From the NCBI GenBank assembly GCA_021014945.1, contig MU266697.1, positions 1-21,249 on the forward strand: a stretch of 21,249 nucleotides of DNA, given 5' to 3'. This DNA is from Leucogyrophana mollusca. Taxonomy: Eukaryota > Basidiomycota > Agaricomycetes > Boletales. Of this stretch, positions 2,491 to 21,153 are shown in pieces. How positions within the stretch are numbered: position 1 is the first letter of the stretch; each line of letters opens with the position of its first letter. Position numbers and translations under genes: made by a program. Under the pieces are notes generated by a model. It worked only from the letters and a program-made list of their open reading frames with translations. It did no database searches and had not been told where the DNA came from.

Positions 2491-2679
2491 TTTAGGTCCG
2501 AGCCCCCAAGGACCTAGCACAATGGGCTGGGCTAAGGGCATAATGGGAAGTTGTGGCCCATGGGAGTTCCATTGAAGCGGAGTTTGAAGCCCTTTTAAAA
2601 TCTGGTTGCCCCGCTGAGACTTGCCTCAAAAATTCTTAACATCCAACCACAACCACCACCCGCTCAAAAAGTTTTAATC
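2491..2679 (+). promoter_or_regulatory. Conserved 5' leader of antisense gene, copy 1
   Basis: It starts with an inverted repeat, TAGGTCC (2493-2499) and GGACCTA (2510-2516), around a C-rich loop. A TATA-like TTTTAAAA lies at 2593-2600, and an A/C-rich leader runs up to the ATG at 2680. The order and most bases match 15615-15802. Several CpG sites of that copy are TpG or CpA here. Promoter function is inferred only from position and conservation. Confidence 0.5.
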
Positions 2680-2922
2680 ATGTCCACTACCAGCACCCCC
2701 GTTCCCACCAACACTACTGCTGACGGTCCTTCCAATGCCATCGTGATTCCGTCGAGTCCAGTCAATGTCATGGACAACGATGCCAAGCTCTGGGAGATGA
2801 AAAGGCAGCAGGACGAGGAGTTCAAGAGGAAGAGGCAGCAGTTGTGCAAGAAGCAGAGGAAGGAGGTGGAGGAGCAGAAGGCGTGTGAGGCAGAGGAGAG
2901 AAGGGGGCTGCACAAGATATGA
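2680..2922 (+). pseudogene. Truncated N-terminus of the antisense coiled-coil/Zn2Cys6 protein (copy 1)
   Basis: The ATG at 2680 opens an 80-codon frame. About 33 Ser/Thr/Pro-rich residues are followed by a highly charged helix of Lys, Arg, Glu and Gln, beginning near LWEMKRQQDEEFKRKRQQ. Similarity to the fuller copy (from 15803) stops at about 2905. The last six or so codons are LTR sequence, ending in TGA at 2920-2922, so the zinc cluster is missing. Unlike the fuller copy, the first 75 codons are intact here, which shows where translation of the ancestral gene began. Confidence 0.8.
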
Positions 2923-2947: not shown

Positions 2948-3388
2948 TCAGACGTTGCTGAACAGCAAGTACTGTGTGAAGTTCAGCAATAAATTGTGTA
3001 GGCAATGGTAGTATCCGGGATTAGTGTTGCCATCAAAAAGAACTGTTTGCTGGTTGAAGACTAGATATGGAGCAGTTTCTTCAAAACAAGTCCAAGGACA
3101 AGTGTCCTGATATCCAGGTAGAGATTCTGTAATATCACCAGGGAAAGGGAAAGCTCCCAAAGTATGAAGAACAGGAGTGTTAGCACTGGCTATATAAGGA
3201 GGTGGATTTGGACGGGATGTGAGGCAATGATTGAGAGAGTACCGAACGTTAAGCCAATGTTCTGTCAAATCAGATTCAGACAGGATGCATTCAACTGCTT
3301 CTGCATTGACTGAGTGTAGATGTCGCTGTTCTTGACAAGTGCAATGAGTGAAGAAGAAGAGATGCGTGGTTTGAGCAAGAAGATCCAC
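2948..3388 (-). other. Unrecognised open frame (146 codons)
   Basis: A long minus-strand frame with an ordinary amino-acid mix, including NPPPYIASANTPVLHTLGAF. It lies immediately upstream of the kinase and overlaps its first recognised segment (2925-3005) in another frame. It does not resemble the usual FunK1 N-terminal region as I know it. It may be a remnant of another gene or chance coding. Confidence 0.25.
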
Positions 3389-3395
3389 AATGAAT

Positions 3396-3457
3396 AGAGT
3401 GATGTAGTTAGAGCACGGGGCTCATAACCTGTCGAAGATATGAGTGATAAATCTTAG
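3396..3457 (+). tRNA. tRNA-Met(CAT)-like relic, probably a pseudogene
   Basis: The run GTTAGAGCACGGGGCTCATAACC resembles the D-arm end and anticodon arm of an elongator tRNA-Met, with loop CTCATAA and anticodon CAT at 3423-3425. About eight bases of the D loop are missing. The T arm (TGAGTGATAAATC) departs from the GGTTCGA consensus, and no pairing acceptor stem is visible. It is a decayed gene or the head of a tRNA-derived SINE. Confidence 0.3.
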
Positions 3458-4640
3458 TATATTCGACTATAACTACAAAGTATACATAGTGAATGAGATA
3501 TGGTGCACAGATCATGTAAACATATATGTACGAGTTGTTGTACTACATATGGAAAGCATGAAAGGAATCTATCCAAGTATAACTATGATACTAGAATGTT
3601 CCAGTAGTCTGTACCGGCTATGATAAGTTGTATACTAACATGTGATAAAGAGAATCATATTCTACATGTTCAACAGGGTGATGAGACACTTGTATGTTAC
3701 TGTGAAATAGGTATGGTACACTGTAAAATAGGTACGGTACACTGTGAAATGGGAGCGGTACACTGTAGAAATGCTGTGGATCACTGTGGGGATCTGTAGC
3801 ACTCTGTAGCGCTGCTGTGGTCCAGCTATGGTCTGCTGGGGGGTTGTGTGGCTGTGGGAAAGTTCGGAGTGTGCTGATGTCCCATAGAAAATCTGCTCTC
3901 AATCTTTGGGATCTAAGGGTTCAAGTCACGTACACCTCACTGAAACTCAACCTTTTGAAGTCCCAGACGGGTTTCTACAGTACAACTCTGTATGAGGTGG
4001 TACATCAGTAAGGATCTACTACAGTCAGTTCCATTGGCTGTTGTTTTCCTGATGCTGACTGGTCTATTGACCTGAGGTTTGCTGTTACATAAAAAGGGCC
4101 TAGATAGCCTCCATTCCAACGAGCTACTTGGCCATGAATAGGTTCCCTCAACACATGAGTGTTCGGGTTCACACATCTGCACACTTCTAGGCTGGAGCCC
4201 ATCACCAAACTGCATCAGCAAAACACCCAGGTTTTCACTTATCATCAAAGAAGTTGACAAGGTTCATGAAGTGTGCTGTAAGGTGATGGGATTCTCCGAT
4301 TGGTGGAGATGCCTGGGGACAAGCAGACGGAAGCACTACTTAGATATCTGAATGGATGGCCATCTTATTGGACAACTTTATGTCAGGATCAAATCTAACA
4401 TCTTATCCTGATGGTTTTGGCGGTTTTACATCACGTGCCCCCTCAGCCACTCCCAGCGCACCCCACCTGCATCCACAGGGTGAGGTGTGCTCGATGGTGG
4501 CAGCGTCGTGGGGGCATGGCAGGATTGCTCAATGAAAACAATTTCCTGGGGTGCCCAAGATGCCCCCTGACCTGTTGGGTGAGGTTTTGGAGCTGGGGGC
4601 CAACAGAACATTTGTTGACAATTCAATCTTTGAAGTACAT
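3458..4640. other. Stretch without assigned gene
   Basis: Apart from the 21-bp repeats at 3699-3782, I recognise nothing firm. A minus-strand frame at 4005-4208 has protein-like composition, with ARWNGGYLGPFYVTANLRSI, but no family I can name. The left end of the Plavaka-type DNA transposon should lie here or further left. I could not find a convincing terminal inverted repeat by eye. Confidence 0.4.
3699..3782. repeat. Minisatellite, four 21-bp units
   Basis: Units start at 3699, 3720, 3741 and 3762 with the pattern ACTGTGAAATAGGTACGGTAC. The first three are close copies and the fourth is decayed. Shorter ACTGTGG or ACTCTGTAG echoes follow to about 3815. Confidence 0.85.
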
Positions 4641-4647
4641 GTGTCTA

Positions 4648-7600
4648 CTAGTACATAAAATCTACATAAACGTCATCAACAAAATCTGCATCCATGTAAG
4701 TGGCATGATAGAGTTCTTTGTCCGAGTAAGTATTCAGGTGGTAGCAGTCATACCTCCTGGGACAAGGCTGTGCTTGCATCCCACGGAATCTTCTCTCCAT
4801 ATGCTGGTATGAGCTCCACAGGATGAGTGATATCAGTGAGGGGGAGGACTTCACCATACCAGATGCATCCTTGAGGTGTAGTAGTGTACAGCCTCTCAAC
4901 AGTGTACATTGCAATATACAGCTAGTGGTCCAGGGTTGCTGTGTATCAGATATATTGCACATAGACCAGAGGTTGTAAGAGACACGGTGGAAGTGGAGGG
5001 TCTTGTGTTCCAATTTTTGGCTGGAAAACTACACGAACTTGTGCAATGAGGCTAACTAAAGGATATAACTAACTCAGTGTCATACTAGTATCAAGTACAA
5101 AATGAATAGGCACTTACCACTGCCGCCACCATCTCTTACAAGGACAGTATCACAATTGCCATGAGGAAATGCTTCAGAAGGAGGGAAAATCTGCATGAGC
5201 TGGTTGGGCAAGACAGTTTGTGCTCTCAGACATGAGCGGAGCTGAAGACAGAATTTGTACCAGACTTTGAGGGACCCGTGTTGAATGGTCCGGTTGCTAG
5301 GCGTACTCTGAGGCTTATTCTCCTCATGCTGGATGTAGTGGATGAATGTGACTCGGAAGTCATGGATCTTGTACTCAGACTGGATCATGCCAGCCATCAT
5401 CCTCGAATGATCAGCGGCTGAGGTGATACACTGTCCAAGCACCGTCTGAAAGGATTCCCTTGAAGAAGTGATTGTGAACTGTCCGGGGTGCCTCAATGCA
5501 GGAGCTAAGAGAGGGAAGGATGCGGTCAATCCACGCAAGCACTTGGGCAGTCTCGACTATGTGTCTGTCTTCATCCATGACAGTGTTGATGAGAGGGGCG
5601 CCCTCGGGGCGCGGAGGTGCGTATAATTCAAAGAGTCATGCCGTTTCAGCTCGGTTGAGGATTTGAACCACCTGATCTGTAAAATCCTTGAGCTGTTGGC
5701 TGGTGTTTCAAACGGATTCTTGCAATGGGTTATGAGGAGGCGTTCTGGTACATCAGCAGTATATTGCATGAGACCACCTGACTGTTTGACTACTTGAGCA
5801 AATCCTTGCATCAGCTCAAGTTTGGGTATGTTGAAGTTCTCTGTCATATTCCGTGCAACCACGCGCCCGTATATCCCATTCTGGTTCTCTTCCACCCCTT
5901 TCCGTACACCTCCAATCCCTCCGTCTAACATATGTTGGACTTAATGTTTTTCAGACTCGTCACTCCGCCTCCAGTCCTCTGGACTCTCCGCCGGTCCCTC
6001 GGACCGAACACCGCCTCGTCGGATCTTCAGTATGTTGTCACTTATAGTTTCCATATTATTATGCATTGCCTTTTGTTAGCCTCCATATTAACTCTATTAT
6101 TTATCCTCCGTCTGTCACACTAATCCTATGTACATAGCCTCCTCCGTTCTCCGGACCCACTCTGTACTCCGGAGCTATTCCTTTAGTTGTTTCTTATTGT
6201 TCTCATTGCACCGGTTTCCAGTTACTATACTCTGTAGCATAGCCTGACTCCATAGTATAAATACTGCTCCGATGTATGTTCCTACTCCTTAGTTCGAATA
6301 TCAATTAAATCACCTCCTGATCTTTCTGCCTCTAAGTCTCCACTCCTCCGATTATTCTCTCTGGAATCTTTCATTAAGATTCCTCTTATTCTTGTGTCCT
6401 CCTTAGTTCTCCGACTTCCCTCCGACCCCTCCGAAATCCGGAACTGACCTCGGACAAGGGCGCAGCACATACACTGAAGCCAAAGGTTCCATTCTGACTC
6501 CGGAAACAGTTTGTTCCTAAATACTCTAAGTTCCTATGCTCACTCCTAGTCCGGAGTTCCCCGGAAAGCACTGGAGGAACCGGATTTGACATTCTCCATA
6601 GTTCCCTTCTTTCCTCTATGAGCCTCCACCTCCAAGATAATGTTCTTGTGTTGATGAAACTCGGCAAGGGCTTCCACCATTTTCTTGATCGTGGTTGGTG
6701 TGTGGACATGCTTTTGTGCGAGGTATATGAAATCAATCATTGCCCAGACAGCGCGTACGAATTCGCCGGGGGCGGCACCTGCGATTACGGCCACAATGGT
6801 GCACTGGACATCCCGATGCTCTCAAACAGTCATTTGTTTCACATGTGAAACACCTTTGCTGAAGTGGCGAGTACCTACCTGTTTGTGTTGGCTTTGATAC
6901 CGTACATTGAGCTTGTCATGGCCAAGAAGCTCTTTGCACCATATGAGTACATGGTTGAAGAAGAACTTTAGGCAGACGTGGAGTATCTCAGGTGTGAGGA
7001 ATATTGATGGACATGCAAATCACCAATTGTGATAAAACAGTTGAAGAACCCCATATAGATAAACCTGCTTTGAAGCCTTCTGGAACCTGTCGAGATCCCA
7101 GGGATCGATGTTTTGGGTATGTATGAGGTCATAGATGAGGGTTAGGATGTATCCGCCCGCGCACGGGGGGTGAGCGAGTGAGTCGCCAAATTGTTGAAGC
7201 GTGGCCATAGACACCACGGATGCATTCTTTGAAACACCGGACAACAGCTGCTGTTCAGGGAGGTCTGCGATGTATGCAGCAAGCGGTGTGAATTTATAGC
7301 GTAAATCCCCACAGGGATCAGGGAAAAACTGCCCAATATGCGCTGCAACTTTGCAGTTGGCAAAAACTATATCCATACACTTATGGAAGACACATGCGGA
7401 TAGGATGGTTTAATAGTCAGAATGGGCATTGAAGGTGGGGATAGGCATGTACACAATGCAGCACCATGTGTGTGATGTAGCCCTCATCTGGACATCAGCT
7501 TGGATGTTTCCAAGAGTGATGAAAATGGGATGCAACTCAAGATTGCCAGTATGCCTGGTGACGGGGGTTTTGTCTGAGGCTGCAATGATAGGAACAATGG

Positions 7601-9604: not shown

Positions 9605-9619
9605 TCTACAGCCCCATGC

Positions 9620-10376
9620 TGTCATATCCCGTGCAGCCACGCGCCCTCATATCCCATTCCGGTTCCATTCCGCACGTTTCCGCATCCCTCCGATCCTTCC
9701 ATCTAACAATTGTTGGACTTAGCATTTTTCTAGACTCGTCGTTCCGCCTCCGGTCCTCCGGACCCTTCCGCCGGTCCATTGGACCGAACACTGCCCCTTT
9801 TCCTTTTGTATGTTTTCCTCTCCATTATGGTTCTGTCTACGCACCGCCTTTACTTAGTTTTTATTTATCTTCCACTTGTCACACTAATCCTATGCCTGTC
9901 CAATCTACATAGCCCCTCCGAGTTCCGGACCCACTCCACCCTCCGGAACCATTCCTCCTTTATCCTTCTTATTGTTTCGCTGCACCGGTTTCCGGTTACT
10001 GTACCCACCCACATTCCGTAGCACAGCCCGACTCCGTAGTATAAATATTGCTCCGATGTATGCTCCTGTTCTTTAGTTTGAATATCATCTAAATCACCTC
10101 CTCATCCTTTCCGCCTCTAAGTCTTTCTCCCTCCGATTATTCTCTCTGGAGTCTTTTCTTAAGACTCCTCTTGTCTCTGTATTCTTCCTAAGCCTCCGAC
10201 TCCATTCCGACTTATCCGAAATCCGGAACTGACCTAGGACAAGGGCGCAGCACATACGCTGAAGCCAAAGGTTCCATTCCGACTCTGGAAACAGTTCGTC
10301 TCTACATCCTCTAAGTTCCTACGCTCACTCCTAGTCCGGAGTTCCCCGGAAAGTACCGGAGGAACCGGATTTGACA
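9620..10376 (+). mobile_element. Solo LTR 3 of the TGTCA/TGACA family
   Basis: It is 757 bp, from TGTCATATCC to GGATTTGACA, with GTATAAATAT near 10040. The perfect duplication CATGC lies at 9615-9619 and 10377-10381. Confidence 0.95.
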
Positions 10377-10425: not shown

Positions 10426-11052
10426 TGTCATATCCTGTGAATATGCGCACATCTCCAGTCCTCTGTCTTCATCTCTGGTCCTCCAACTTGTAATACTTTC
10501 TCTGTATGTTTTCTTATTGTCTATTTCCTTATATGATATGCTCTGTCTCTGTACTACTTATTGTCTCTATTGTTCTGCATGACAGCTGTCAACCTATTGT
10601 TTCAACTTACAATAATCTCCATTTTCTCCGAGCTCCGGCTCCATTCCTCTATGCTCCGCTGACATATTCTTTTGTTATACGATTCATACTATACTCAGTT
10701 TGTGTTGGCTATCCACACCTTGTTCCAATTCACTTGTAGTATAAAAGCCTGTACTTTACATCATTTGTACTCAGTTCAAATATCAACTAAGATTGATTCT
10801 CTTGCTCATCCTCTGTACTTCCACGTGTTCCAATCTCCGGACACAACTCTGCCCTTTTCCTCTTTGATGCTTTGTCTCATCCTCTCTATAAACCTCTTGT
10901 TCTCCGCCTTTCTGAAATATTGGGACAAGTCCACAGAAGGGCACAGTGTACTAACTGAAGCCAAGTCTCTTCTGTCTTTGTTATATCATTACACTTATTC
11001 TCATTGCAATCTCTGGAGCTAGCTCCGGAACCTTGGAATCGTGTACTTGACA
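10426..11052 (+). mobile_element. Divergent solo LTR related to the same family
   Basis: It is 627 bp, beginning TGTCATATCCTGTG and ending TTGACA. It has a TATA box (AGTATAAAAGC near 10738), the downstream TTCAAATATCAACTAA block and the GGACAAG...CTGAAGCCAA block in the order seen in the other LTRs, but the overall sequence is much diverged and shorter. The perfect duplication AACAG at 10421-10425 and 11053-11057 confirms the borders. Confidence 0.85.
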
Positions 11053-11156
11053 AACAGCAACTGATCTTTACACTTGCCAAGCAAGCCATCTCCCTCATTG
11101 AAAGTGTTTCCGTGGACTGGGGATTAGCTGATTGTGATATAGAGAGAGCGGATTAA

Positions 11157-11603
11157 GAACAATCAGACAGCTGATCAGGCACATATGCGAGTTCTGTTGT
11201 CAGTGGGCAATTCTCTGACAGTGTAAATGTCTGCCAGCCTGACACAGACAACATGAAGCCTTGACTTGAGCATCATCCAGTAGCTGTGTAATGGGCGAGT
11301 TGTATTGCCATCTATATCTCACATTCACTCCCCTATCTGTCACCATGCCCCATTCCATTTGTAACCCCCGGTCTCTTGCTGTAGGCACTTCACATACATT
11401 CCAGTCATGTTCCTATATACTGTCAAACAATTGCTATTGTTCCTTGCTTGGTGTAAGTGAGTCACAATTGCGTTGAAGATTGCTTGATGCAGATGTGTCA
11501 CTCACCAAGCACTCATATTGAATAACCCTCATGGCCCCCCAGCATCACATTTCATGCTCAAGTGCTCAAGGCTCATTGTGGGCAGGTTTCGATTGATTGT
11601 ATC
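11157..11603. other. Stretch without recognisable gene
   Basis: No convincing coding on either strand. The only structure seen is an inverted repeat, TGCTTGGTG (11445-11453) and CACCAAGCA (11503-11511), with further partial pairing inside. It could be a small hairpin or miniature-element scar. Confidence 0.45.
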
Positions 11604-12344
11604 TGTCATATCCCGTGCAGCCACGCGCCCTCATATACCATTCCGGTCTCATCCCGCATGTTTCTGCATCACTCCGATCCTTCCGTCTAACATTTGTTGG
11701 ACTTAGCATTTTTCTAGATTCGTCACTCCGCCTCCGGTCCTCCAGATGCTCCGCTGGTCCATCGGACCGAATACCGCTTCCGGACCTTTTGTATGTCTCT
11801 CCATTATAGTTCTGTCTATGCACTGCCCCTACTTAGTTTTCATTATTAACCCGACCATTTATCCTCCGCTTGTCATACTAATCCTATGTACAAAGCCCCC
11901 TCCATTCTCCGGATCCACTCTGTACTCCGGAGCTATACCTTTAGTTGTTTCTTATTGTTCTCCTTGCACCGGTTTCCGGTTATTGTACTCCGAAGCACAG
12001 CCCGACTCCGTACTACAAATACTGCTCCGATGTATCTATGTACTTCAGTTCGAATATCATCTAAATTACCTCCTCTGTTTTCCGCCTCTGATCCCCTCTC
12101 CGATTCCCCGCCCTAAGTCTAATCTAAGACTTCCTCAGTTTTCCCTTATCCTCTGTATCACTCCGACTTCTTCCGACTTATCTCCGAAATCCGGAACTGA
12201 ACTCGAGCAAAGGCGCAGCACATAAGCTGAAGCCAACGTTCCATTCTGAACTCCGGAATCAGTTTGTCAATCCCTACCTATATTCCTACACTTACTCCTT
12301 CATCCAGAGTTCCCTGGAAAGCACCGGAGGAACCAGATTTGACA
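11604..12344 (+). mobile_element. Solo LTR 4 of the TGTCA/TGACA family
   Basis: It is 741 bp, from TGTCATATCC to AGATTTGACA. The perfect duplication GTATC lies at 11599-11603 and 12345-12349. It lies just upstream of the decayed gene that begins near 12402, possibly in its 5' region. Confidence 0.95.
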
Positions 12345-12401
12345 GTATCAATAAGGAATGTGTATATCATGGCAACCACACTGTGTTAGAGGTGAGTTAC
12401 C

Positions 12402-14099
12402 CCATGTCCCAGCCCTCCCAGCCAGCTCCTGACCCCTCTAGTCAATCCCTTGCAACAATCACTGCCCCATCAGTTGGTCCCCAGTGTAGAAACAAAAAGA
12501 GAAACCCAAAGGTATACCACTCAATGCCTATTCTCCATATAAATTACCTGCGTTCAGCGGTTCAGCAAACACAACTGTGACTTGACAGTTAATGCCGCGG
12601 GCTTCCCAGTAGCTTCACAACTGAACTGCTCTTCTGAGCTCCCAGAAGTCCCAGCTGCTGTAAGGATGAACAAGTCCCCTCCCTATCATGTCCCCCCTTC
12701 ATCATACCATCCATATATTCATGAACACAACAATCACTCTCAAGAGTATCAGCAAGCCGGACACCAACACCAGCACAACGAGGAGTGGCAGCCCACTTAC
12801 CAACACCAGCAGCTCCTTTGCCCTTGAGGAGCAACAATGTCGCACTTATGAGGAGCAACAATGTCATGCTTATGAGGAACAACAACATCGCACTTATGAG
12901 GAGCAACAATGTTGCACTTATGAGGAGCACCTGCACCAGGCCCACAAAGAGCACCAACATCACACTTATGAGGAGCACCAGCGCCTGGCTCATGAGCAGC
13001 GGCAGCATGCAGGTCATGACCCACTGTTACAGTTCGTTGCCCCAGGCCCACGCTCAGTACAACAGCATCACAAGGTGGCATGCAGGGACTCCAGTCTGTT
13101 GGAAGTATCCCACTGTGTGGAGTGGGTGTACAACTAATCGCAGCGTACACAACTGAACGCCCACTAGGAGGTGCTGCTAACCCTGGACGTTCACAAGCCA
13201 GCTTAGACACAGAACCGCAACTAGGACAATACAGAGACGGTGTAATCAGTGTCTGTCCTTCATCACCATTCCTCATAATACATATCATTCACAATGCACA
13301 TGATACTTTACAGGTCACAGAAACACACTCCACCACTGACCAGACCACCTCCCGGTGTGTATCACTACCATTCCCACAAGAAACCATTGCCTCTCCCACT
13401 CCTCAGGCTTCTGAACCCGTTCCAACCCCATCTACCAGCCAGCTCCTAGTCCCCTCAGCCACTCAGCGCAGTACAATGACTGCTTGGAAAGTTGCCATAC
13501 CACCAACACTTTTACCTGAAGATGTGTTCAATAATGCAAAGGAAAAGCTCAAAACTTGGACCTTGAACGTCTCTGGCTTCGCAACGCCAGCAGGGAGAGC
13601 CTCCCGCATCACAGAAATGCTTCAAGAAGTTGCAGCTGAGGCTGGACTCAGTAAGTGTGTTCTCAGCCTTGTTGCCTTGTTGCGAACTCACCACATTTAG
13701 ATCCACCATACAAATGGGCACATGTATTTAGCCATGTAGCCAAGCTTTGCAACAATTTCAAGGACATCGCACACTGTTTGGTCATGCTTGGGTGCTGCCT
13801 TCAGCTGCCCATATGTGACATGGACTCTGAGTACAAGCACAAAAAAACAATGGTTCTGCAGCTTATTGAACAATTGCAGTTGCTCAATGTGTATGAGGTA
13901 TGTATGATTCTGCTCTGATATCTAAGTTCTGACCGAATTTCTCACAGGCTGAACCCGACTCCAACAATGTATTTGTCTGTTATCTCAAAAATAATGTTCT
14001 AGCATGTCTTATCCTTGATGTTGCCTGGCTAGGCGGTTGTTCCAGTATCATTGACCCTTCAAATATGGACAAGATCTTTGCATTGGCTGGTACTGCGAT
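12402..14099 (+). pseudogene. Intron-containing hypothetical gene, decayed and cut off by the retroelement
   Basis: A possible first exon, MSQPSQPAPDPSSQS... with basic RNKKRNPK, is followed by His/Gln-rich coding, a 24-bp repeat (12826-13017) shifted by one frame, then a Ser/Thr/Pro-rich linker and a more ordered domain. That domain runs across two clear 50-bp introns, 13651-13700 (GTAAGT...TTTAG) and 13898-13947 (GTATGT...CACAG), with frames joining exactly. The last exon ends in IFALAGTAI at 14099, where the LTR begins. A low-complexity N-terminus followed by such a domain recalls the Agaricomycete DUF6532-type proteins, but this is a weak guess. The remainder should lie beyond the right edge of the window. 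Confidence 0.6.
12826..13017 (+). repeat. 24-bp coding minisatellite, eight units
   Basis: Units begin at 12826 and every 24 bases after, with the pattern GAGGAGCAACAATGTCGCAC plus TTAT. They encode EEQQCRTY-like octapeptides. The first four are close copies; the last four are diverged to EEHxxxAH types. One frame is open through the array, but it is out of frame with the flanking coding on the left. Confidence 0.85.
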
Positions 14100-15604
14100 T
14101 GTTAAATCCGGTTCCTCCGGTACTTTCCAGGGAACTCTGGACTAGGGAGTGAGCTTAGGGACATAGATAAGGAAGGATGGACTGATTCCAGAGTTTGGAA
14201 TGGAATGTCGGCTTCAGCTTATGTGCTGCGCCTTTGTGTCAAATCCGGTTCCTCCGGTGTGATTCCAGGGAACTCCGGACTAAGGAGTAAGAGTAGGAAT
14301 GTAGATAATGGGGGACGAACTGATTCTGGAGTTTTGGAATGGAACATTGGCTTCAGCTTATGTGCTGTGCCTCTGTCCAAGTTCAGTTCCGTATTTCAGA
14401 AGTAGGTCAGAAGGGGTCAGAGATCAAGGGAGACAGAGGAAGTCTTAGGGAAAGACTTAGAGGAGATAATCAGAGTGAGGATCAGAAGCGGAATACAATG
14501 GAGGTGATTAAGATGATATTTGAACTGAAGTGCATGGTTACATTGGAGCAGTATTTATAGTATGGAGTCGGGCTGTGTAATGGAACATGTGTGGGTACAG
14601 TAACCGGAAACCAGTGCAAAGAAACAATAAGTAAAATCAAAGGGGAATAGATCCAGAGAACGGAGTGGGTCCGGAAAATGGAGGGGGCTATGTACATAGG
14701 TTTAGTATGACAGACGGAGGATAAATAATAAAGTTATTATAGAGACTAGCAAAAGGCAATGCATAATAAAAATGAAACTATAAGTGATAACATACTGAAG
14801 ATCCAATGAGGCAGTGCTCGGTCCAAAGGACCAGCGGAGAGTCCGGAGGGCCAGAGGCGGAACTGTGAATCTAGAAATTGCTAAGTCCAACAACTATTAG
14901 ATGGAGAAAGCGGAGTAGTGCAGAAATGTCCGGAAAGGACTCAGAGTGGCATATGCGGGCGCGTGGCTGCATGGGATATGACACTTTGCTCGAGTTCATT
15001 TCTGTATTTCAGAGTAAGTCAGAAGGAGTTGGAGAGGTGCAGAGGGTAAGGGAAACTGAGGAAGCCTTAAAGAAAGACTTAGAGAGAATATTCGGAGGGA
15101 GATCGGAGATGGAAAGTAAAGGAGGTGATTAAGATGATATTTGAACTGAAGTACATAGATACATCAGAGCAGTATTTATAGTACGGAGTTGGGCTGTGTT
15201 ACGGAGCGTGTGTGGGTACAGTAACCGGAAACCAGTGCAATGAAACAATAAGTAAAACAACTAAGGAATAGCTGTGGAGTGCAGAGTGGGTCCGGAAAAC
15301 AGAGGGTGCTATGTACATATGATTAGTATGACAGACAGAGGATAAATAATAGAGTTAATATGGAGACTAGCAAAAGGCAATGCATAATAAAACGAAACTA
15401 TAAATGACAACATACTGAAAGATCCGGTGAGGTGGTGTTCAGTCCAAGGGACCAGCAGAGAGTCCGGAGGGCCAGAGGCAGAACGACGAGTCTAGAAATC
15501 GTTAAGTCCAACATCTGTTAGACAGAGAGGTTCGAGTGGTGCAGAAACATCCAGAAGGGACTTGGAGTGGTATATGCAGGCGCATGGCTGCATGGGATAT
15601 GACA
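14100..15604 (-). mobile_element. 3' LTR of the chromovirus, split by a nested LTR
   Basis: On the minus strand it starts TGTCATATCC at 15604 and ends GGATTTAACA at 14100. The parts 14100-14236 and 14989-15604 add up to 753 bp, the family length. The final TGACA has become TAACA. It contains a TATA-like TATAAATACT near 15177. Confidence 0.9.
14237..14983 (-). mobile_element. Nested solo LTR inside the 3' LTR
   Basis: It is 747 bp, TGTCAAATCC to GATATGACA on the plus strand, so minus orientation. The perfect duplication CTTTG at 14232-14236 and 14984-14988 shows it inserted into the older LTR. Both are of the same family and orientation. Confidence 0.95.
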
Positions 15605-15617
15605 GTATCCCCCCTTT
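15605..15617 (-). other. Polypurine tract of the chromovirus
   Basis: The minus strand reads AAAGGGGGGATAC directly before TGTCATATCC of the 3' LTR, the position where LTR retroelements prime plus-strand DNA synthesis. No other LTR in the window has such a tract beside it. Confidence 0.8.
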
Positions 15618-15802
15618 AGGTCCGAGCCCCCGAGGACCTAGAACAATGGGCCGGGCTAAGGGCATAATGGAAGACTTGTGGCCCGTGGGAGTTCCGTTGA
15701 AGCGGAGTTTGAAGCCCTGTTAAAAATCCAGATTTCCCGCTAGGACTTGCCTCAAAAATCTTAACTCATAACCACCACCACTTTGCTGCGGAAAAACTTA
15801 TC
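15615..15802 (+). promoter_or_regulatory. Conserved 5' leader and likely promoter of the antisense gene, copy 2
   Basis: The inverted repeat TAGGTCC (15617-15623) and GGACCTA (15634-15640) encloses a C-rich loop and overlaps the polypurine tract by one or more bases. GTTAAAAATCC near 15719 is TATA-like. An A/C-rich leader precedes the ATG at 15803. It is strongly similar to 2491-2679. Promoter role is inferred. Confidence 0.5.
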
Positions 15803-16733
15803 ATGTCCGCTCACAGCAGCACCCGTTCCTGCCAACACCTCTGCCGGCACTGCCAACAATGCCATTGAAGTCCTGTGAAGCCCCGTCAACCTTCTGGATG
15901 ATGACACTGAGTTCCGGGAGATGAAGCACAAGCAGGATGAGGAGTGGGAGTACAAGAAGAAGCAGCTGGGTGAGAAGCGGAGGAAGGAGGCGGAGGAGCA
16001 GAAGGCGCGGGAGGCGGAGGAGAGAAGGGAGCGGGAGCGGAAGGAGGCAGAGGAGGTGGAGCACCAGAAGAAGGCGGCGGAGGAGGAGAGAGCGCGGGCG
16101 GAGGCGGAGGCCGCAAAGCAGAAGCAGGCGGGGAGCGTGAGTGGAAGCACAGTGGGGAGTACAAGGTTGAGTGGGAAAGGGAAGGGGAAGGTGATGGAGG
16201 GTGTGGGGCAGACACTGGAGGAGCTGGATGTGATGATGGAGGAGGAGGAGCTGGTGGTAATGGTGAAGAAGTGTCAGGAGTGCGAGACGAAGAAGAAGGA
16301 CTGCTGGGTGGTCATATGGGGCGGCAAGCCGATGGCTTGCGACACCTGTCGCAAGTCAAAGGCGAAGTGTTCACTGCTCCCAGAGTCAGAGCAGAAGCGG
16401 GAATGGGCCGGAATGGTGGCATCACCACGCGGAGGAGAAAAGAGGAAGAAGAACAAGATCGCGGCAGCAATAGCGGCGGGGGAAAATCAGTGGGACTCAG
16501 ACAGAGAACATCAGGGCAACCGGGACATGCTGGGAGGACTGTCCCAGAGCATGATGGGGCTGACGGAGGAGGTCCACAAGCTCCGGATGGACATACATCG
16601 TGGACTCCGGCTTTTCGACCAGATTGCCATCGCCGTGGAGTGCATGGCCAACATCGAGCCAGTGTCCCCTAACACCTACACCACAGATGAAGAGGAGGAG
16701 GGTCCGGTTGCTAGCGGAAGTGGCCGGAAATAG
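15803..16733 (+). pseudogene. Antisense cargo gene: coiled-coil protein with Zn2Cys6-type cluster (copy 2)
   Basis: The ancestral ATG (15803, by comparison with copy 1) is out of frame because of one extra base in the first 25. The correct frame then has TGA at 15876-15878. An intact 270-codon frame starts at the Met at 15921. Residues 1-70 of that frame are a charged coiled coil. Cysteines 118, 121, 128, 140, 143 and 150 give C-X2-C-X6-C-X11-C-X2-C-X6-C, the spacing of fungal Zn2Cys6 clusters, with CDTCRKSKAKC as the second half. A basic EKRKKNK follows, then a helical stretch and an acidic TDEEEEG tail. Family proteins of this type may bind DNA; that is not shown here. It faces pol tail to tail, about 116 bp apart once the solo LTR is removed. 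A shorter protein from 15921 could still be made. Confidence 0.75.
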
Positions 16734-16761
16734 ATTAGTTGTATTTGTCTTTGTTGCATAG

Positions 16762-17506
16762 TGTCATATCCCGTGCAGCCGCGTGCCTGCATATGCTACT
16801 CCGAGTCCCTTCCAGATGTTCCCATACCACTCCACCCTCTCCGTCTAACAGTTGTTGGACTTAACAATTTCTAGACTCATTGTTCTGTCTCTGGTCCTCC
16901 GGACTGTCCGCCGGTCCCTCAGACCGAACGTCGCCTCATCAGATCTTTCAGTATGTTGTCACTTATAGTTTCCATTTTATTATGCATTGCCTTTGTTAGC
17001 CTCCATATTAACTCTATTATTTATCCTCCGTCTGTCACACTAATCCTATGTACATAGCCCCCTCCGTTTTCCAGACCCACTCCATACTCCGCAGCTATTC
17101 CTTAGTTGTTTTACTTATTGTTTCGTTGCACCGGTTTCCGGTTACTGTACTCTGTAGCACAGCCTGACTCCATGCTATAAATATTGCCCCGATGTAACTA
17201 TGTACTTCAGTTTGAATATCATCTTAATCACCTCCTCTGCATTCCGCTCCTAATCTCCTATCCAATTATTTTCTCTAAGTCTTTCTTTAAGACTTCCTCT
17301 GTCTTCCTTACCCTCCATACCCCTCCAACCTCTTCCGACCTATTCCGAAATACGGAACTGAACTCGGACAAAGGCGCAGCACATACGCTGAAGCCAATGT
17401 TCCACTCTGCACTCCGGAATTCAGTTCGTCCTCCATTATCTATGTTCCTACCCTTACTTCCTAGTCCGGAGTTCCCCGGAAGGCACCGGAGGAACCGGAT
17501 TTGACA
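16762..17506 (+). mobile_element. Solo LTR 5 of the TGTCA/TGACA family, inside the chromovirus
   Basis: It is 745 bp, from TGTCATATCC to GGATTTGACA, with GCTATAAATATT near 17175. The perfect duplication CATAG lies at 16757-16761 and 17507-17511. It lies 28 bases past the stop of the antisense gene. Its orientation is opposite to the host element, so it is not one of that element's own LTRs. Confidence 0.95.
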
Positions 17507-17598
17507 CATAGTGTAAGAAAATGAATGGCATTGTCTGGCAGAGACCAGAGTGACCGGAAAAATGAGTGGAATGATTCAGGAAAGGACTTTAGAAGAAT

Positions 17599-17931
17599 CT
17601 AAGGGATATAGGGACCGGGTTTGCCTGGGTTTTTGGCATGGAAGTCTGTGACTAGGTCTGATGTGTGGTCTAATTCTGTGGCTAGGAGCCAGGAGGTTTC
17701 CTCATCAGTACCCTTGTATCCAAGCCAGCGCACCAAATATAATAGTCCGCAAGGCTTCCGTCTCTGGTCAACTTTGGAGTCTAAGATCTCAGAAATTTCA
17801 TACTCTGCTTCACCGTCGACTTCAATAGGAGGCAGAGGTGGTTGGATGTGGTTTGGAATGGTGTTCGGAGTGGCGGGCTCAAGTTGGGATACATGGAAGA
17901 TGGGATGTACGGAGCGCATGGTGTTGGGAAG
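17599..17931 (-). pseudogene. Chromodomain at the C-terminus of pol
   Basis: HPIFHVSQLEP is followed by YEISEILDSK, YLVRWLGYKGTDEETSW and DLVTDFHAKNPGKPGP, the standard chromodomain layout with its aromatic residues (Tyr, Trp). In related elements this domain targets integration to marked chromatin. Confidence 0.9.
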
Positions 17932-17934
17932 TCA

Positions 17935-19045
17935 GACTGTGAAGGATAGGGGTCCAGCTGGGGTAATGATGGGGAAAGGTCTGCTGTTCTTGTCAGAGAG
18001 TTTCTTAGATGGGTGGGTGGAGTGGAAAAACTTGGCTTTGATGAAAACAGAATCTCCTACTTTGAATTCCAGAGCTGGAGCTTGTCGGGCATCTGCAGGA
18101 CCTTGATAACGCTTCTGGGCTTCAGCCACTTCCGTCCGGGGAAATTCATGGAGGTCATCTAAATCGACTACAAAGTTGCGGGCATGGGCGGAGGTAAGGT
18201 CATGTTCTGGGTACACTGTGAAATTAGGATGATAGCCTTTATTCGCAAAGAAAGGAGATACTCCAGTCATAGCACTCGGAGCATTATTGTAAGTGAATTC
18301 CGCTAAAGGCAGGAGATCGGACCAAATGTCTTGCTGGTAATTGCAGTAGATTCAGAGGTACTGCTCTAGCGTCTGGTTAGCACGCTGGGTCTGTCCGTCA
18401 CCTTCCGGATGATACCCGGAGGTAAAATGGAGACGCATGTTGAGGGCTTGTCAAGAGACTGGAAGAAGTGGGAGACGAACTCTGAACCTCAGTCTGAGGT
18501 TACGTGTGCCAGAACACCATGCTTGGAGAAGACATTGATGAGGAAGAGTTGAGCGAGGTTGGCGGAAGATATGGTGTTGTGGGTGGGGATGAATATAGCT
18601 TGCTTAGACAGTCGGTCAATGACTACAAGTATGGCAGTGAATCCAGAGGACAATGGAAGTTGTTCTATGAAATCCATGGAGATTGAATTCCAAGGTCGTT
18701 CCAGAACCAGGAGTTGCTTGAGCAATCTGTAGGGGCAGTGATGCGGAGTCTTAGTGTGGGCACAAGTGGTGCAGGACTTGACATAATCCTTGACATAGGT
18801 GCGGATGCCAGGCCAGGTGTATTCATGTCGGATCAGCTCTAAGGTACGATTCTGACCAAAATGTCCAGCGAGGGGATGATCATGGAAATGCTGGAGCACT
18901 TGGAGGCGCAAGTTGTTGGCTTCCAGGACATATATCCGGTTGTCAAGCCGGAGGAATCCATCGGAATCCTTGGACCAGTGTGGGTCTGGGAGGGTGGAAG
19001 ACTTGGCAATAGCCAGAGAGTCAGATGGGAGAGCGGAAAGGATGT
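17935..19045 (-). pseudogene. Integrase domain of pol, broken
   Basis: The zinc-binding HHCC region includes HDHPLAGHFGQNRTLELI and KSCTTC. The DDE core has SMDFIEQLP and HVTSD, with the Glu expected in a following NQTLEQYL segment in another frame. The C-terminal part has FKVGDSVFIKAKFF. TGA codons at 18489 and 18352 and a frameshift near 18448 separate the pieces. Confidence 0.9.
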
Positions 19046-19065
19046 TGGAGTGGAGCTTCTTGATG

Positions 19066-20451
19066 TCAAGGAGTGCGGAGGCGCGGAGGACAGGGGTATG
19101 TCTTGGAGGTGGAGAAATATTCTAAGTTCTTGTGGTCCATGACCACAACTACCAGAGTTCTGGAACCTTTGAGGTAGTGCCTCCAGGTCCAGAAGGCTTT
19201 GTGGATGGCAAGGAGCTCTTTGTCGTGCATGTCATAGTTCAACTCCGCGGCAGTAAGGGTGTGGGAGAAGAACATGACAGGATGGAGCTCTCCATCGGAG
19301 CAGTGGATGGAGAGAATGGTGGTGATTGCGTAGTTGGAGGCGTCAGTCTTGACTGTAAGTGGAGCATCCAGAACCCAATGGGTGAGGACTGGAGCAGACG
19401 TAAAAGGCTTGAAGGACTTCCTACAATTGTCGGAGAAGTTCCACGGAGCATCCTTGCGGGTAAGACAAGTGAGTGGGACGACAATATCAGAATAATTATG
19501 GATAAATCGCCTGTAGAGATTAGTGAGGCCTGGGAAGGACTGGATGTCCTTGACTTTCCGAGGTTCCGGCCAATCAATGATGGTCTGGATTTTGTTGGAG
19601 GCCATGGAGAGGCCTTCCAGTGCGAGGACATAGCCAAGATACTCTACAGTATCAGTGTGGAACTCGCACTTCTTGGGGTTGGCGTAGAGGCCATGTTTCT
19701 GGAGTCTGCGGAGAACTTCCTGGACATGGGAACAATGAGAGTCCAGGTTGTCGGAATAGACAAGGATATCGTTGAGGTATACCACCACATGGACATCCAG
19801 CATGTTGCTGAATATCATATTGATGAACTGTTGGAAAGCTGCTGGGGCGTTGGTCAGGCCAAAAGGCATGACCATCCACTCGTAGGACCCATAGCGTGTG
19901 TGGAAAGTGGTCTTCCACTCATCTCTGATGGCGACACGGACTAGGTGATAGGTGTGCCGGAGATCAGTCTTAGTGTAGACTTTGGCATGGGAAGGGGAAT
20001 CCAGGAGGTCGGAAATGCGGGGGAGTGGGTAGCAGTCTTTCTTGGTGATCTTATTGAGACCTCGGAAATCGACGCAGGGGCAGAGAGAGCTATCCTTCTT
20101 CTTGACGAAGAGCATTGGAGTGGCATAAGGGGAAGAGGAAGGGCAGATGAACCCATAGTTGAGGTTCTTGTCCAGGAACTCGCGGAGCGCCTGGAGTTCC
20201 GAAGGGGAAATGGAATAGAGTCTGCCTAGCGGAGGAGTGGCGCCATCCTCGAGCTCGATCTTGAGGTCGAAATCCCAATGCTCCTGGAGGTGAGAGGCTT
20301 TAGCCTTGCTAAAGACATCCACAAACTCGTGGTACTCCAGAGGGACAGAGTCGAGATTCATGGAGTCATTGGTGGGAGCAGAGGTGGAGGTGGAGCGAGC
20401 TTTAAGGCCAGGATCTTCGAGGGAAAGGGTGAACTGCTGGGAGCCCTCCAT
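19066..20451 (-). pseudogene. Reverse transcriptase and partial RNase H of pol
   Basis: RT motifs are present: PYATPMLFVKKKD, CVDFRGLNKITKKDCYPLP, KTDLRHTYH (first catalytic Asp) and MPFGLTNAPAAFQ. The YxDD box reads YLND: codon 19771-19773 is AAC, so the first Asp of the pair is Asn. RNase H keeps VKTDASNY, a Glu in DKELLAIHKA, and the Asp of DHKNLEYF. The rest is lost to the deletion after STSK, and the frame then ends at 19066. Confidence 0.93.
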
Positions 20452-20640
20452 TCAACAAGTGCGCTGATAGGCGACAGCATTGATGAAGGAGATGTGGGGC
20501 TTCTGGAGTTCAGGGGCGCCTGGCGAGTTGGGCGGAGGAGAATCCAGAGGTGGAGGAATAGGGGATGGGGTCTCCAGAACGGAGGGTGATGTTGGGGGCG
20601 CTGGCATTCCCAGTGGCAGAGTCCAGAACATGATACTGCT

Positions 20641-20989
20641 CTATACCCAATCAATCAATGGATTATAGCGGGTGAGCCAGTTGTGTCCTAAGACTGCGGC
20701 GCAGGAGGAATCCAACAGAGTGACATAAAATGTCACGGAGGTGACATCGCCAGAAGGAAACAGTACAGACAGATCTACAGCTTCAGAAATGTAAGTATTA
20801 CAAGAACCATCAAAGAGAGAGAGCGGGATAGGAGGTACGGAATACGTCAGAATCTGGTTTTTTGTGATATAAGAAGAGTCTATAAAACAATGGCTAGAGC
20901 CGGAATCAATCAATGCAGGAATCAGAGGAAAATCATAGGTAAGGAAAGTGACTGTGGGCATAAGGGAATTGGGATCAGAAGGAGCAGAC
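20641..20989 (-). pseudogene. Retroviral-type aspartic protease domain of pol
   Basis: ALIDSGSSHCFID carries the catalytic D-S-G, and the flap and C-terminal part reach AAVLGHNWLTRYNPLIDW before the TAG. The frame is open upstream only to the inverted-repeat segment that starts at 20988. It would cut the Gag-Pol polyprotein. Confidence 0.85.
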
Positions 20990-21153
20990 TGTAAGGCACA
21001 GCCACATCAGTGGCATATAAATAGTGATTAAGTAATTATATACAACATCTTTTACACTACATACATACACCATTGGAATAGACACTGGGTCACGTTCCTC
21101 GGTGTGAAGTAAGTAGAGAGTCAATTGACTCTACAGTAAGAGAACCTTACAGT
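20988..21153. repeat. 166-bp segment bounded by 9-bp inverted repeats
   Basis: It starts ACTGTAAGG and ends CCTTACAGT. Inside are a plus-strand CATATAAATAG (TATA-like) and a perfect 16-bp palindrome, AGAGTCAATTGACTCT, at 21117-21132. TGTAAGG...CCTTACA ends with TATA resemble a very short LTR. No target duplication is visible (CAGAC left, GTTTT right). It interrupts the pol frame just upstream of the protease. Confidence 0.5.

Follow-up and report, generated by a model that had tools for sequence, protein, structure and literature searches.

A Ty3/gypsy family of Leucogyrophana mollusca carries an antisense gene for a coiled-coil, zinc-type protein between pol and the polypurine tract

Among the closest described systems to the element considered here is Boty (BcGypsy1) of Botrytis cinerea, in which the antisense gene brtn lies between pol and the 3′ long terminal repeat (LTR) (Zhao 2011, as cited in PMC7264820, PMC8365987, and PMC4227169). 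In plants, the antisense product of Grande is nuclear and that of Retand has a domain predicted to bind DNA; the antisense gene of human T-lymphotropic virus (HTLV) is transcribed from the 3′ LTR; and the roles of antisense genes in LTR retrotransposons are described as open in both plants and fungi (PMC7264820, PMC11963269). Here we analyze a Ty3/gypsy element on contig C371 (21249 bases, the window below) of the 32.3 Mb assembly of Leucogyrophana mollusca (Boletales). Comparison of its sequence with relatives in the assembly indicates that a plus-strand gene, antisense between pol and the polypurine tract (PPT), belongs to a chromodomain Ty3/gypsy family in this fungus as an integral accessory gene and is selected as a protein. 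The preliminary description of the window knew of no such antisense gene described in fungi, and brtn does not support the idea that genes of this kind are unknown there (PMC7264820).

The association of gene and element rests on the 3′ ends of pol. A DNA-level search of the genome, which more diverged members could escape, placed such ends on five contigs (C371, C437, C313, C400, and C263; 6 of 6 candidates scored), and each of the five shows the final codons of the antisense gene, then a short recognizable spacer, then the end of pol, on the same strands. In C371 and C437 an LTR has entered the spacer; the two insertions differ in position and are opposite in orientation. C519 was left out of this count because its pol 3′ end lies outside the contig. 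By this count the gene is present in most copies of the family, and the earlier view that the association was not a one-off receives decisive support from the junction common to 5 of 5 pol 3′ ends. Within the limits of the assembly, and with none of the five elements fully intact, neither intact gene-less copies nor a mainly unlinked gene family came to light.

We considered whether an unrelated gene or mobile element had been inserted once into the 3′ flank of pol. The several inserted LTRs in the window would be in keeping with such an event, as would the related elements on C73 and C288, which lack the gene. These are the nearest other gypsy elements tested (reverse transcriptase (RT) identity 47% and 46%, respectively); their end stretches match each other within the element (99% over 164 bases in C73 and 96% over 197 in C288), and their pol frames reach to within about 20 bases of a similar purine tract, which leaves no room for an antisense gene. 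Gene searches also gave no match on C170, which holds a more distant pol fragment. However, the same junction with a common spacer recurs in five elements at different places, and the leader of the gene is joined to PPT and LTR at two places. The shared pol/gene junctions refute a one-off nested insertion, and we give it almost no weight; had the insertion taken place in an ancestor of the family, it would be the origin of the gene rather than a competing explanation. Because the junctions are shared within one family and C73 and C288 are gene-less, the antisense unit was most likely acquired by a single family and retained there.

The ratio of nonsynonymous to synonymous substitution rates (dN/dS) of the gene was 0.32 against C437, 0.22 against C263, and 0.42 against C313 (bootstrap upper bounds 0.48, 0.35, and 0.63). 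The other five frames gave 0.77 to 1.58, except frame –2 (0.57, 0.49, and 0.50); for C437 and C313 its intervals overlap with the gene-frame intervals, and for C263 the two touch. Low values are expected for frame –2, since its third positions face the third positions of the gene. The dN/dS check proposed in the preliminary description thus points to purifying selection at the protein level with frame-specific constraint, and the frame control rules out a chance open reading frame (ORF) opposite a sense gene. The same results bear on the idea that the antisense RNA, and not the protein, matters, with convergent transcripts forming double-stranded RNA that damps the element. The tail-to-tail layout would suit this idea, which has been suggested for plant antisense ORFs (aORFs) (PMC7264820), but protein-level purifying selection, frame-specific constraint, and invariant cysteines in the product speak against it, and we regard it as very unlikely.

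The gene diverges faster than RT (dN 0.28–0.41 versus 0.07–0.08; dS 0.97–1.25 versus 0.38–0.48; RT dN/dS 0.16–0.21), although there were three comparisons in each set, only C313 is in both, and alignment noise in the coiled coil affects the comparison; a fourth gene comparison, with C400 (22 codons, dN 0.20, dS 0.68), was excluded as too short. Faster divergence is what one would expect if the protein countered a host control layer or a competing element and an arms race drove its evolution. However, dS is raised along with dN, which suggests that the cause is not positive selection but older divergence, exchange between elements, or alignment noise, and no pairwise dN/dS in the gene frame exceeded 1. 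We consider this reading unlikely.

The coordinates of the features are given in Table 1. Pfam models RVP_2, RVT_1, RT_RNaseH, Integrase_H2C2, and Chromo all matched above cut-off, in this order on the minus strand, while the rve core scored below its cut-off on a short integrase frame. Protease, RT, RNase H, and integrase in this order with a C-terminal chromodomain make the element a Ty3/gypsy chromovirus. Pfam matches, repeats, and sequence reading confirmed that pol, PPT, and 3′ LTR all face minus, and that the plus-strand unit begins at the PPT and ends at the TAG at 16731–16733, tail to tail with pol; the element has the position and strand typical of LTR elements with an aORF between pol and the 3′ LTR. 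Two parts of the earlier layout had to be modified: gene and pol do lie tail to tail but are not direct neighbors in the window copy, where a plus-oriented solo LTR (16762–17506) separates them, and the 3′ LTR is present on the minus strand but is not continuous, being split by another LTR (14237–14983) into pieces that align to LTR positions 1–612 and 607–745.

The leader matched three places in the genome, each on a gene-bearing contig, with the window leader 86% identical to each of the other two. A scan for sigma-70-type promoters, a model unsuited to a fungus, found none. The window copy of the gene has a frame change just past the ATG at 15803 and one in-frame TGA, so its open frame begins at 15921 (15921–16733, 270 amino acids). 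In the protein, cysteines 118, 121, 128, 140, 143, and 150 show the CX2CX6C-CX2CX6C spacing of PF00172. The six cysteines are invariant in seven proteins (six of them database records), and the protein is a lysine/arginine-rich coiled coil of zinc type, which upholds the earlier reading of a Zn2Cys6-like motif plus coiled coil, here in a protein-coding gene that a Ty3/gypsy family carries stably and in antisense. PF00172 scored above its curated cut-off in one of the six proteins with the region (window copy and P0002–P0006; P0007 left out), and searching the sequences of solved structures with a profile yielded three weak matches. Protein searches, two of which scored about 8,000 candidates each (those sharing most words) and a third all 485 candidates, returned the window protein and six proteins of L. 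mollusca, with no homologue outside the species. Separately, C334:4947–5825 (L075:1369–2250) encodes a single-copy 293-amino-acid protein with a coiled coil and a similar cysteine pattern (only 27% identity to the antisense-gene protein over 166 columns; hhalign probability 63.5); the C334 gene might be akin to the one from which the cargo gene came.

CGG is the usual contact of Zn2Cys6 proteins. In the solo LTR, CCGG occurs 9 times versus 1.6 expected, and an excess was seen in 10 of 10 LTR stretches tested, reached by at most 2 of 300 shuffles (the C519 "LTR" in this test was 1051 bases, partly unaligned to the LTR). CCGG in pol was 10 versus 7.2 expected, and three other window stretches had 4, 4, and 2 versus 2.9, 2.9, and 1.4. 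TCCGG/CCGGA was the most over-represented 5-mer over eight pooled LTRs, of 43 matched stretches (84 versus 8.1; 5-mers seen fewer than 30 times were dropped). Four sites near the U5 end of LTR 16762–17506 are spaced 10, 10, and 9 bases apart. The excess is a correlation that fits a self-regulating element, and it lends indirect support to the earlier suggestion that the product could act on the element's own LTR.

We propose, with middling confidence, that the integral antisense gene encodes a self-regulator. The gene would be transcribed toward pol from a promoter in the conserved leader or the adjacent LTR; its product would pair via the long coiled coil, bind CGG-containing sites through the Zn2Cys6-like module, and, in the nucleus, set transcription of the element by acting on the family's own CCGG-rich LTRs. 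Such a self-encoded regulator would have analogs in the antisense genes of plant Grande and Retand and in HTLV antisense transcription, and the element may steer its own activity. More tentatively, the antisense Zn2Cys6-type regulator and a matching LTR operator (TCCGGA sites, partly in an array phased at about one helical turn) could form a feedback circuit, with the leftover LTRs in the host (at least about 40) as further targets. If so, these LTRs would spread binding sites for an element-encoded factor across the genome. A recognizable DNA-binding-type module together with a candidate motif in the element's own LTRs makes function directly testable in this family. Alternatively, the protein could be a replication accessory that binds the cDNA or RNA of the element and aids entry into the nucleus, assembly of particles, or the choice of an integration site. 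A zinc-type, lysine/arginine-rich coiled-coil protein from an integral gene under selection would suit this role, and such roles of aORF products are discussed in PMC7264820. It leaves the TCCGG richness of the LTRs unexplained, however, and C73 and C288 evidently spread without the gene (the matching LTR stretches of C73 are 99% identical); we consider it possible but doubtful.

A number of observations weigh against the reading as an integral, self-regulating gene or limit it. On C313, C437, C263, and C400 the gene is cut short or interrupted, with only pieces of its end remaining in C400, and leader and gene are about 2.6 kb apart in C263. The full leader–PPT–LTR junction occurs at two places (the window and C263), with 23 nucleotides (nt) retained in C386 and about 16 in C92, and no minus-oriented 3′ LTR was found for C313 in 11000–15197. 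As to the protein, PF00172 scored the window copy 18.2 versus a cut-off of 21, four of five database proteins scanned gave no Zn_clus match at E 0.1, and a model predicted from seven sequences reached a pTM of 0.25, its weak structural match to HAP1 lying within the common range of the tool. The motif is also mildly enriched elsewhere: CCGGA/TCCGG occurs 7 times versus 1.8 in the gene (2 of 300 shuffles) and 10 versus 4.7 in pol (11 of 300), and CGG/CCG 34 times versus 24.5 in stretch 3000–5800 (3 of 300), so CCGG richness may have a cause other than binding of a regulator. The leader shows no motif excess. Each site of the U5 array is CCGG in only four to six of eight aligned LTRs, and the C313 5′ LTR has CCGG at none of the four. 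Finally, the C73 and C288 LTRs contain no TCCGG, although both are short (164 and 197 bp) and give little power.

The second copy of the unit had been described as joined to an LTR end of the same family. Its leader and the 5′ part of the gene are indeed there, but its first bases lie within the PPT and no LTR directly precedes them. Only 19 nt at 2906–2924 resemble an LTR end (16 of 19 identical), and as evidence for a junction with an LTR end of the same family this copy is weak. LTR/PPT junctions like that of the window also occur in C263, C386, and C92, and C313 has a plus-oriented LTR at 11415–12157. Genome-wide, the LTR family comprises at least 43 matched stretches (40 of 103 candidates scored); the window has four further LTRs of this family, at 670–1451 (–), 5842–6591 (+), 9617–10376 (+), and 11604–12344 (+). 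The two LTR insertions in the short gene–pol spacer, in the window (16734–16761) and in C437 (L002:656–1412), are separated by about 16 bases and face opposite ways relative to the gene; an insertion preference for this spacer is possible. A structured RNA hairpin at the PPT was rejected, as the region folds worse than shuffles (z +1.87).

At the other end, homology of the window element to those on C313, C400, and C519 stops near 20984–20989, and neither C313 nor C519 has a match to the 248 bases that follow, which places gag outside the window. In the relative on C313, a gag frame with a CCHC-type knuckle, read by eye, comes after the 5′ LTR. Beyond the protease, 21002–21151 matches the end of contig C437 (about 16004–16155) at 91% identity, with no match in the C313 and C519 loci. 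Elsewhere in the window, a tandem 24-base repeat (12825–13016) lies in frame within a plus-strand ORF with YEEQQ-type repeats.

Table 1. Features of the antisense gene, its host element, and associated LTRs in the window.
Feature	Position	Strand	Basis or remarks
3′ LTR of the element	14100..15604 (15604–14984, continued 14237–14100)	minus	TGTCATATCC start adjoining the PPT
Nested same-family LTR in the 3′ LTR	14237..14983	minus	matches LTR 1–745, 81%; flanked by CTTTG
Polypurine tract CCTAAAGGGGGGATAC	15605..15620 (minus reading 15620–15605)	minus	directly precedes LTR start TGTCATATCC at 15604
Leader of antisense gene, candidate promoter/5′ untranslated region	15605..15802	plus	TTAAAA at 15720; CA-rich stretch before ATG 15803
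Antisense gene	15803..16733	plus	coiled coil and CX2CX6CX11CX2CX6C; ATG 15803, TAG 16731–16733
Solo LTR between gene and pol	16762..17506	plus	target site duplication CATAG (16757–16761 / 17507–17511)
Rest of spacer between tail-to-tail genes	17507..17598		recognizable in 5 elements
pol	17599..20961	minus	ORFs and Pfam matches; several separate frames in window copy
Chromodomain	17599–17919	minus	Pfam
Integrase	18489–18911	minus	Pfam
RT and RNase H	19066–20451	minus	Pfam
Protease	20641–20961	minus	Pfam
Second, partial copy of the unit	2491..2908	plus	leader and 5′ part of gene; without pol

The host of Boty is an ascomycete, unlike L. mollusca. Compared by description, Boty resembles the present element: both are fungal Ty3/gypsy elements that have a chromodomain and, in the interval from pol to the 3′ LTR, an additional antisense gene (PMC7264820, PMC8365987, PMC4227169). 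In position, strand, and presence in most copies, the gene is also like the aORFs of maize Grande (gene23), rice RIRE2, and Silene Retand (TRP28) (PMC7264820, PMC11963269), but those are plant elements and Retand is a non-chromovirus (PMC11963269); the available parts of PMC7264820 and PMC11963269 name no Zn2Cys6-like motif for plant aORFs. With respect to the protein, six cysteines plus a coiled coil recall the fungal Zn2Cys6 proteins HAP1 and Gal4, as does the weak structural match to HAP1. The six-cysteine spacing is canonical for such proteins. Unlike HAP1 and Gal4, the protein is retroelement-encoded, its Pfam scores are weak, and its second cysteine triad, not its first, matches the start of the Pfam profile. 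The HTLV antisense product is a different type of protein, and we draw an analogy of working only and claim no kinship. Both are LTR retroelements with an antisense gene at their 3′ end, the product of which is regulatory in HTLV (PMC7264820, PMC11963269). A literature search, judged by its listings and with most subscription journals outside its reach, gave no report of the gene in L. mollusca or any basidiomycete. As far as these searches show, the host phylum, the zinc-type module, and the motif excess in the LTRs would set this gene apart from known antisense aORFs.
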